This document shows positions 1,387-7,127 of a DNA stretch of 32,654 nucleotides, piece by piece (the first letter of the stretch is position 1; each line of letters begins with the position of its first letter). The notes beneath the pieces were generated by a model. It saw only the letters and a list, made by a program, of their open reading frames with translations, searched no databases and was not told where the DNA came from. The DNA comes from an uncultured Bacteroidales bacterium. GTDB taxonomy: Bacteria > Bacteroidota > Bacteroidia > Bacteroidales > UBA932. The stretch spans positions 1 through 32,654 of the forward strand of contig CAJOMY010000003.1 of assembly GCA_905235775.1 (NCBI GenBank), read 5' to 3'. The translations under genes and the position numbers were made by a program.

Positions 1387-2490
<1,104 letters not shown>

Positions 2491-2518
2491 CGTCATTGAA
2501 AAGAAAATGCAACGTTCA

Positions 2519-2538
2519 TTGAGGGGCGAACCCCTCAA
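2519..2538. repeat. Short G/C hairpin TTGAGGGG-CGAA-CCCCTCAA
   Basis: 8-bp perfect stem with CGAA tetraloop, directly after the ychF 3' inverted repeat. Confidence 0.8.
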
Positions 2539-2582
2539 ACTCCCCCGGTCGGCGAGGCCTTCGAAACCAACAACCAGCAGCC

Positions 2583-4914: not shown

Positions 4915-6078
4915 ATGGAGAAAACCTGGAGATGGTTCGGCCCTGCCGACAAGGTCACGCTGGAGATGCTGCGGCAGATCGGCGTGGAAGGGGTGGTAAC
5001 GGCCCTGCACAACCACGCCCCCGGCGAGCTGTGGCCCGAAGAGGAGATCCGCGCCATGCAGGCGCGCATCGCGTCGGCCGGTCTGCGCTGGTCGGTGGTG
5101 GAGAGCCTGCCCGTGAGCGAGGAGATCAAGTATGCAGGCCCCCGGCGCGACGCCCTCATCGAGACTTACCGGGAGAGCCTGGCGAACCTGGGCCGCTGCG
5201 GCATCCATACCGTCTGCTACAACTTCATGCCCGTGATCGACTGGGTGCGCACCGACCTGGAGCGCCCCCTGCCCGACGGCACGCTTTCGCTCTATTTCGA
5301 CTACGTCCGCTTCGCCTGGTTCGACATCAAGATCCTCGGCCGCGAAGGCGCGGAGCGGGATTTCCCGCCGGAGGTGGTGGAGCGGGTGGAAGCGCTGGAC
5401 CGCACGGCGACGCCCGCGGACCGCGCGCAGATCATCGACACCATCATCACCAAGACGCAGGGCTTCGTGAACGGCCCGCTGGGCGGCGAGGGCTCGCCCG
5501 TGGAGAAATTCCGCGCCCTGATGGCGCCCTACAAAGGTATGACGAAGGCGCAGCTGCGCGACAACCTGCGATATTTCCTCGAGGCCGTCATGCCCGTCTG
5601 CCGGGAATGGGACATCCGCCTGTGCATCCATCCGGACGACCCGCCCATGCCCGTGTTCGGCATGCCCCGCCTGTGCTGCGATGCCGAGGATATCCGCTGG
5701 ATCCTGGGCGCGGTGGACGACTTCCACAACGGCCTGACCTTCTGCGCCGGATCGCTCTCCGCCGGGGCGCACAATGACGTGGAAGCCATGGCGCGGGAAT
5801 TCGCACCGCGCACGCACTTCGTGCACCTGCGCAGCTGTGACCTCCTGCCCGGCGGCGACTTCGTCGAAGCGCCGCACACCGCCGGAAGGGTGGACCTCGT
5901 GGAGCTCGTCCGCATCTTCGAGGCCGAGGGCCGCGACCACGGCAAGACGATGCTCGGAGACGAGCGCATCGGCTACAACCCGGGCTACAGCTTCCATGGC
6001 CGCATGCTGGCCCTGGGGCAGGTGGAGGGCATGATGGCGGCCGTCCGCAACGAACACAATAACAACAGAAAGATATGA
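4915..6078 (+). CDS. uxuA: Mannonate dehydratase
   Basis: MEKTWRWFGPADKVTLEMLRQIGVEGVVTALHNHAPGELWP...CIHPDDPPMPVFGMPRL...FCAGSLSAGAHNDV...FVHLRS: UxuA signature. Confidence 0.96.
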   Translation: MEKTWRWFGPADKVTLEMLRQIGVEGVVTALHNHAPGELWPEEEIRAMQARIASAGLRWSVVESLPVSEEIKYAGPRRDALIETYRESLANLGRCGIHTVCYNFMPVIDWVRTDLERPLPDGTLSLYFDYVRFAWFDIKILGREGAERDFPPEVVERVEALDRTATPADRAQIIDTIITKTQGFVNGPLGGEGSPVEKFRALMAPYKGMTKAQLRDNLRYFLEAVMPVCREWDIRLCIHPDDPPMPVFGMPRLCCDAEDIRWILGAVDDFHNGLTFCAGSLSAGAHNDVEAMAREFAPRTHFVHLRSCDLLPGGDFVEAPHTAGRVDLVELVRIFEAEGRDHGKTMLGDERIGYNPGYSFHGRMLALGQVEGMMAAVRNEHNNNRKI

Positions 6079-6890
6079 ACGAACTCTATTCCGTAGCCGG
6101 CAAGGTGGCCGTGATCAGCGGCGCTGCCGGAGCCCTGGGCGGCTCGCTCGCCCGGCATTTCGCCTCGCAAGGCGCCGACGTGGTGGCGCTGGTCCACCGC
6201 CCTGAACAGGTCGAACCGACCGTCTCCGCGCTGCAGGCGCTCGGCGGCAATCCCGTCGGGTACGCCTGCAACGTGATGGATACCGACGAGGTGGCGCGCA
6301 TCGCCGACGAGGTGGTCGCCCGCTTCGGCCGCGTGGACATTCTGATCAACGTGGCCGGCGGCAACGTGCCCGGCGCCACGGTCATGCCCGACCAGAACTT
6401 CTGGGACATGAAGCTGGAGGACTGGACCAAGGTGCTGGACCTCAACCTCAACGGCACCGTGTACCCCTGCCACGTGTTCACGAAAATCTTCGCGAAGCAG
6501 GGCTACGGCTGCATCCTCAACATCTCCTCGATGGCCGCCTACGATGCCCTGTCCCGGGTGGCGGGCTATGGCGCCGCCAAGGAGGGCGTGTCCAACTTCA
6601 CCCGCTGGCTGGCCGCCGAGATGGCCATCAAGTACGGCGAGAAGATTCGCGTGAACGCGCTCGCGCCGGGCTTCTTCATCGGCAAGCAGAACCGCGCCGC
6701 GCTGCTCAAGGAGGACGGTTCCTTGACCGAGCGCTCAGTCAAAGTCATCGGCAAGACCCCGATGCGCCGTTTCGGCGACCTGACGGAGCTCAACGGCGCC
6801 GCGCAGTTCCTCTGCTCCGACGCCGCCTCCTTCGTCACCGGCGTCATCCTGCCGGTGGACGGCGGGTTTAGTTCGTTCAGCGGAATCTGA
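6075..6890 (+). CDS. SDR family oxidoreductase, probable D-mannonate oxidoreductase (fructuronate reductase)
   Basis: Rossmann motif SGAAGALGGSLA, NVAGG, YGAAKEGVSN, and start ATGA overlapping the uxuA stop. Confidence 0.85.
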   Translation: MNELYSVAGKVAVISGAAGALGGSLARHFASQGADVVALVHRPEQVEPTVSALQALGGNPVGYACNVMDTDEVARIADEVVARFGRVDILINVAGGNVPGATVMPDQNFWDMKLEDWTKVLDLNLNGTVYPCHVFTKIFAKQGYGCILNISSMAAYDALSRVAGYGAAKEGVSNFTRWLAAEMAIKYGEKIRVNALAPGFFIGKQNRAALLKEDGSLTERSVKVIGKTPMRRFGDLTELNGAAQFLCSDAASFVTGVILPVDGGFSSFSGI

Positions 6891-6903
6891 ACGAACTAAA
6901 CCC
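6864..6903. repeat. Perfect 17-bp inverted repeat overlapping the 3' end of the SDR gene
   Basis: GGGTTTAGTTCGTTCAG (6864-6880) / CGGAAT / CTGAACGAACTAAACCC (6887-6903). Confidence 0.9.
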
Positions 6904-7002
6904 AGGCTCCGCCATGTAGGGGGAGGGTTCCCCCTAACCCCCTCTGTCGCTTTGCTCCGACCGTTCAGCGGGATCTGAACGAACTAAACCCAGGCTTCGC
7001 CA
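6874..7002. repeat. Two direct copies (39/41 identical) of a 41-nt unit, at 6874-6914 and 6962-7002
   Basis: CGTTCAGCGG(A/G)ATCTGAACGAACTAAACCCAGGCT(C/T)CGCCA. The 47-nt spacer contains the hairpin TAGGGGG-AGGGTT-CCCCCTA (6917-6936). Confidence 0.9.
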
Positions 7003-7005
7003 AAT

Positions 7006-7039
7006 GAGGGCGATTAATCAGTACGCATTAATCGCCCTC
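7006..7039 (+). terminator. Hairpin terminator-like structure
   Basis: GAGGGCGATTAAT (7006-7018) / CAGTACGC / ATTAATCGCCCTC (7027-7039), 13-bp perfect stem followed by TTCTGTGTTGT. Confidence 0.65.
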
Positions 7040-7127
7040 TTCTGTGTTGTGCGGCTAAAAAAACGAATGCAAATTATTTGATTATAAAGAATAATTCGTA
7101 TATTCGGCAAATTAAACCATCTTTAAT

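Follow-up and report, generated by a model that had tools for sequence, protein, structure and literature searches.

How does the end of a gene come to stand beside a perfect inverse copy of itself, and what is the short G/C-rich sequence that follows it? The question is raised by a locus in the window (the whole 32,654-nt stretch of Bacteroidales DNA analysed here), where the last codons of a gene for an SDR-family oxidoreductase form the left arm of a palindrome. An initial annotation made from sequence alone had reported at this gene a 17/17 inverted copy of the gene end, a G/C hairpin followed by a C-run and GTCG-type sequence, and a 41-nt direct repeat, and had noted a parallel order of modules after ychF. 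The first observation held in full; the second also held, ychF having 18/18 arms and its modules in matching order. The element concerned is called E throughout, its G/C hairpin is called hairpin C, and the features are collected in Table 1.

Table 1. Features of the two E loci in the window
Feature	Position	Strand	Remarks
Target gene ychF	1387..2490	+	TIGR00092, 462 bits; second target gene in the window
Gene-end palindrome of ychF	2468..2511	+	arms 2468-2485 / 2494-2511, 18/18, loop 8 nt
Variant E copy after ychF	2512..2559	+	hairpin 2519-2538; CTCCCCCGGTCGGCGAGGCC 2540-2559
Target gene, SDR-family D-mannonate oxidoreductase	6075..6890	+	NCBIfam NF006132, 332.7 bits (cut-off 281)
SDR left arm	6864..6880	+	native gene end GGGTTTAGTTCGTTCAG; codes GFSSFS; conserved in orthologues
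SDR loop	6881..6886	+	CGGAAT, 6 nt
SDR right arm	6887..6903	+	inverse gene-end copy, complementary to the left arm 17/17; starts with stop-codon bases
SDR E spacer s	6904..6918	+	AGGCTCCGCCATGTA; spacing from right-arm end to hairpin
SDR hairpin C	6917..6936	+	TAGGGGG-AGGGTT-CCCCCTA; outer pairs covary across copies
SDR conserved 3' block of E	6938..6961	+	CCCCCTCTGTCGCTTTGCTCC (6938-6958) + GAC
Direct repeat, copy 1	6874..6914	+	41 nt: gene end, loop, right arm, part of spacer
Direct repeat, copy 2	6962..7002	+	41 nt, immediately 3' of E

Results

Palindromic gene ends are rare and accompany E

The SDR and ychF palindromes are not chance occurrences, because a scan of the 32.6-kb window for perfect inverted repeats of 14 bp or longer, with loops of up to 24, returns no others. 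The hairpin after ychF reads TTGAGGGG-CGAA-CCCCTCAA and is followed by ACTCCCCCGGTCG; the direct repeats at the SDR locus are identical at 39/41 positions (two differences), with a start-to-start spacing of 88 nt. Across the roughly 1.2 Mb of the 1.9-Mb genome that was surveyed, in stretches, only 5/935 gene ends carry a perfect inverted repeat, 9 bp or longer, with six or more coding bases in its left arm. Four of these carry E. The fifth (L059) does not, and is the orthologue of a gene that bears E in a sister genome, for which loss of E is the simpler reading. Among E-free gene ends of the same genome, a palindrome enters the coding end in 1/929.

E is a dispersed hairpin element

The initial annotation had proposed a dispersed element with further copies. 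A search of the own genome for a G4-7/C4-7 hairpin, a C4-7 run and a GTCG-type sequence, blind to palindromes and gene ends, returned ten places, each with an extra inverse or direct copy of the adjacent sequence. Inverted arms are found at SDR, ychF and rpoC (21-bp arms), at a tRNA-Gln gene (26-bp arms plus a direct repeat) and at the end of an unidentified RNA-like gene (20-bp arms), while a three-unit tandem E array at a yidD-like gene accounts for three matches and two further genes (L020, L035) have a direct repeat only. An RNA-gene identity guessed for the target at L021 was not confirmed, as Rfam gave no match. The pattern CCCCCN{1,3}GTCGCN{3,4}CTCC was matched about 85 times in 81 genomes of the genus against five times for a reversed-pattern control, so that the further copies were indeed found. 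Presence across these 81 genomes is patchy and copy number low. A stricter pattern found no E in the rest of the order, sampled as 244 genomes from 165 other genera. E is likely restricted to the genus, although this is unproven, because the stricter pattern also missed the single other genus member in that order-wide sample. No match was found in phages or plasmids, and carriage by either was rejected.

Each copy comprises a variable spacer, a G5/C5 hairpin (GGGGG-loop-CCCCC) and then CCCCCTNNGTCGCTTCGCTCC. Alignment of 46 copies gave a conserved core in which the spacer ends in (C)ACT or similar and is followed by GGGGG-loop-CCCCC, a short link, CCCCCTNNGTCGCTTCGCTCC and GAA. Both base pairs flanking the G/C runs of hairpin C covary, with three pair types each; pairing is retained in 52/54 and 47/54 copies against shuffled means of 27 and 22.5, a level reached in 0/2000 shuffles. 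The covariation therefore supports a real hairpin, as RNA or single-stranded DNA. A second, small hairpin inside the spacer was unsupported overall (23/42 copies against 44% after shuffling). Rfam 15 gave no family in the window at gathering threshold, and none at E-values up to 1 for 6840-7080. The data show that E is a dispersed hairpin element; its movement is inferred, no insertion event having been caught between strains.

An inverse copy of the target precedes most copies of E

Within the 110 nt upstream of E, 46/61 distinct copies have a perfect inverted repeat of 9 bp or more, and the other 15/61 lack the arm. The corresponding frequencies are 2.3% for random positions taken from these loci and 9.4% for gene ends without E. 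Leaving out one composite repeat family of genome G065 the figure for E copies is 38/53, and the remaining loci are partly homologous between genomes, so that not all of these counts are independent. Given these backgrounds and the rarity of such palindromes in the window and genome, a chance origin of the arms was rejected. Ordinary terminators were rejected too, since, although 9% of E-free gene ends have inverted repeats of 9 bp or longer, these practically never reach into the coding end. Assembly error is unlikely because the same footprint recurs across many separate genome assemblies.

The composite family aside, arm sequences are unrelated between loci, each consisting of its own gene or tRNA end and the reverse complement. 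The stretch repeated just before E is the terminal 9-26 bases of the target. The palindrome loop is mostly 2-8 nt (median 4), and in protein genes whose arm reaches the coding end the palindrome is centred no more than about 8 nt from the end of the stop codon. The distance from the end of the right arm to hairpin C has a median of 20 nt and falls within 9-26 nt in 43/46 cases, regardless of arm length. This near-constant distance is inferred to mark the 5' end of E. The arms do match the end of the neighbouring gene, and capture of the adjacent gene end by a dispersed element is supported in the sense that the junction holds an inverse copy made from the target itself. Two refinements are needed: the arms are not cargo carried between sites, and the footprint is not confined to gene ends, being found also in frame inside mutY.

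About 12 copies of E lie after tRNA genes. Palindromes that include at least 4 nt of the tRNA were seen at 9/13 tRNA genes with E and 2/24 without, and one of the two E-free cases carries an apparent truncated E. At some tRNA copies mismatches are confined to the right arm, with no change in the tRNA arm (L133 vs L138, L145 vs L146), a pattern that suits a footprint in decay better than a stem under maintenance. Separately, a 26-bp loopless perfect palindrome at L036:7284-7335 includes the 3' end of tRNA-His, with no recognisable E adjoining it.

The right arm is derived

The right arm is derived and was not a pre-existing target, because E-free orthologues lack it. At the SDR gene six readable E-free orthologues end without the right arm; at rpoC a gene-end palindrome is present in 0/28 readable orthologues, against 21 bp in the own genome; mutY orthologues without E have no left arm, right arm or direct repeat of the kind found in G065; and for three loci of relatives (L165, L167, L172) the own genome has armless, E-free sites. 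The initial annotation had proposed looking for sites empty of the element, and at all six loci such sites exist without the inverted arm. A template-switch footprint, defined as a perfect inverse copy beside its source that is absent from orthologues, is therefore met at each of the six.

These comparisons bear on a target-choice explanation, in which E simply inserts beside pre-existing palindromes or terminators. In its favour, the palindrome core at tRNA genes is an ordinary terminator, and L059 has a gene-end palindrome without E. Against it stand the single palindrome into the coding end among 929 E-free gene ends and the lack of any palindrome in E-free orthologues of rpoC, SDR, mutY and others, which leave this explanation very unlikely and largely refuted.

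E inside mutY and at other coding ends

E lies in frame within mutY in G065 (L156:990-1052), in G097 (L131) and in a fragment of the own genome (L150, contig C157). The inserted peptide is DGG(S/R)IPRNPLGRFAPTAS or close to it (GGSIPRNPLGRFAP-type), and in the own-genome fragment the GGSIPRNPLGRFAP-type insert occurs as two tandem copies. The G065 copy has GAGCCGTTGGTC as its left arm and GACCAACGGCTC as its right arm, with a 29-nt direct repeat after E; in G058 E is present in mutY and the arm is absent. A different palindrome, of TTTTTCGCAAGGCTTTGCGAAAAA type, occupies the same mutY linker in G028 (L191) and G037 (L192), and the linker may possibly be a hot spot for hairpin insertions. At another locus of G037 (L144), a gene orthologous to L039:13057-13328 of the own genome apparently runs into E and stops at a TAA in the loop of hairpin C, so that E would supply a new C-terminus.

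Direct repeats are a rarer and more variable footprint

Direct repeats of at least 12 nt accompany 18/61 copies and are thus a rarer footprint than the inverted arm. Their length varies from about 20 to 45 nt. The clearest start where the left arm ends, or close to that point, and stop just before hairpin C, and those in the window, at L121 (45 nt), L153 (twice) and L156 contain the loop, right arm and spacer. Four loci (L148, L151, L020, L035) have no inverted arm, and there the gene end itself is directly repeated. E-free orthologues have neither the inverse nor the direct copy of the gene end. Of the two origins suggested at the outset for the SDR direct repeat, target-site duplication or strand slippage, the results are compatible with a long target duplication of variable length, and slippage is not excluded.

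Three observations on repeats stand apart. At L020:14387 and its second copy, the first four sites at which the direct copy departs from the original gene end are all A-to-G changes, which may be chance or may possibly reflect a strand-specific mutagenic step. In G065 (L123, L154, L159-L163) E travels within a composite repeat together with a GCAGATGT hairpin and CCGGAATGCTACAGCGAGACAGGCAGGG-type repeats. Another dispersed family of perfect palindromes, TA(C/T)GAAAGTAACCG...CGGTTACTTTC(G/A)TA, occurs without E at L078:4003-4044 and L085:10835-10876.

Orientation and candidate enzymes

Of 51 intergenic cases, 41 have E downstream of a gene in the same orientation (41 vs 10, p=1.5e-5); no bias was detected on the other side of the intergenic copies, and some copies lie antisense within genes. 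Orientation is one of two points in favour of a selected 3'-UTR device, in which the whole structure is kept as a terminator or mRNA stabiliser. The other is the very stable fold of 6862-7045 (-85 kcal/mol, z -6.7). However, presence is patchy and copy number low, copies lie inside mutY and antisense within genes, right arms are decaying at some tRNA loci, and selection alone leaves perfect 17-26-bp inverse copies of unrelated sequence unexplained. Such a device is considered very unlikely.

The 23 E-bearing genomes were counted from the genus pattern search, with false matches removed by eye. Genes for Y1 (HUH) transposases are present in 23/23 of them and in 36/58 other genomes (p=2e-4, not corrected for phylogeny). 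In a mere sample of Y1 loci, comprising contig C8 of the own genome and ten loci from relatives, of which three belong to genomes that bear E, no Y1 gene was flanked by E. Reverse transcriptase genes show no association with E (10/23 vs 22/58 genomes, p=0.8), several E-bearing genomes have no RVT_1 match at all, and reverse transcriptase was rejected as a partner of E.

The last result weighs against retro-insertion, in which the 3' end of a transcript, such as a tRNA precursor or mRNA, pairs with itself and is extended by a reverse transcriptase, which adds E through a template switch before the cDNA enters the gene end by recombination. This explanation would account for E following the direction of transcription and for the strong over-representation of tRNA genes among its targets. 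In addition, at tRNA genes the right arm lengthens the stem of the terminator so that it takes in the tRNA end, the outcome expected if the 3' end of the terminator primed its own extension. Nevertheless, besides the missing enzyme association, the mutY copies are intragenic and far from any transcript end, and retro-insertion is judged unlikely.

Discussion

Inverse and direct copies of the target at E junctions, their near-fixed spacing and the orientation of E with genes are shown. The preferred mechanism is inferred. HUH/Y1 transposases act on hairpin-bearing single strands and leave 3'-OH ends. It is proposed that insertion of E would pass through a free 3'-OH on the gene side, that this end would fold back on itself and be extended by self-copying, and that the self-copied end would then be joined to the fixed 5' end of E, so that target, loop, inverted target and E would stand in that order. 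The direct repeats, where these are formed, would come from repair on the other side. The joining enzyme may be an HUH/Y1 (RAYT-like) transposase, which is the weakest step. Taken jointly, a non-autonomous mobile DNA element of about 55-60 nt, its mobility inferred, and a fold-back origin of its junctions form a proposition on which the evidence is evenly poised; that a mobile mini-element, possibly served by HUH/Y1, joins the folded-back, self-copied 3' end of its target could equally prove right or wrong. Against it count the 15/61 armless copies, the L059 palindrome without E, the want of an E-flanked Y1 gene among the loci examined and direct repeats that it does not explain in detail. The poorest fit is rpoC, whose right arm is separated from E by a terminator-like hairpin.

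Template switching after insertion remains a possible alternative. Here E would insert cleanly or with a target duplication, and its hairpin would later stall replication, whereupon the polymerase would copy the neighbouring gene end inversely, giving a perfect hairpin, or directly, giving tandem repeats. Perfect hairpins are known to arise in one event (PMC8794818), direct and inverse copies and arrays of two to three units occur at the same loci, and both the rpoC hairpin and the armless E in mutY of G058 fit this view. On the other hand, arms are present at a high share of copies and stand at a narrowly constrained distance from the hairpin, both of which suggest a step linked to the junction, and E-free gene ends with ordinary hairpin-forming terminators almost never show an arm.

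The footprint thus points either to a self-primed integration step or to an element that provokes hairpins wherever it lands. A bolder form of the fold-back mechanism, that E represents a new mode of DNA mobility in which integration proceeds via the target's own 3' end and leaves an inverted duplication, is not beyond reach, though the balance lies slightly against it. The E family would be a natural source of new perfect 3'-end hairpins, of new C-termini of proteins and of in-frame insertions such as that in mutY, and with dozens of comparable events in one genus the mechanism is testable.

Comparison with known elements

Short palindromic mobile repeats such as REP, RPE and CGTC repeats are known (PMC3733652). 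REP/REPIN sequences, associated with RAYT transposases of the IS200/IS605-type Y1 group, are like E in being short, non-autonomous intergenic hairpins near gene 3' ends, and the likeness extends to the genome level, Y1 genes being present in every E-bearing genome. However, no GTAG/CGTC-tagged REP structure of 20-40 bp was recognised in E, a Y1 gene flanked by E, as RAYTs are by REPs, was not seen among the loci examined, and binding or cutting of the hairpin is only hypothesised. Nor is an inverse copy of each target's own end reported for REPs in PMC3733652. A retroelement would be expected to bring reverse transcriptase genes into E-bearing genomes, and this was not met (10/23 vs 22/58). 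CGTC repeats and Rickettsia palindromic elements (PMC3733652) are short palindromes without a known transposase and some are intragenic, as E is in mutY, but in E a conserved, unpaired C-run/GTCGC block comes after the G5/C5 stem, and their stems are the repeats' own sequence whereas the arms associated with E are the target's. Cyanobacterial very small mobile repeated elements and fungal mitochondrial double-hairpin elements are also tiny mobile hairpins whose mobility mechanism is unknown, like that of E; neither is known to have a target-derived inverted arm.

Template-switch mutation and quasipalindrome correction (PMC8794818, PMC7202029) likewise produce perfect inverse copies with a short loop, but no link to a mobile element, or placement at a fixed distance from one, is known for them. 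In the open-access literature searched, no description was found of an element with an inverse copy of its host gene's end. MITEs share with E the direct repeats that flank some copies, yet unlike MITEs and insertion sequences E has no target duplication of constant length (18/61, variable), and it has an inverse copy of the target. It also lacks the own-sequence terminal inverted repeats of classical MITEs and insertion sequences, its long inverted repeat being target-derived and different at each locus. Direct target duplications are the usual mark by which insertions of mobile elements are known, whereas those of E go with inverted target copies. E is best placed among the short palindromic mobile repeats, with a footprint that may prove categorically new.
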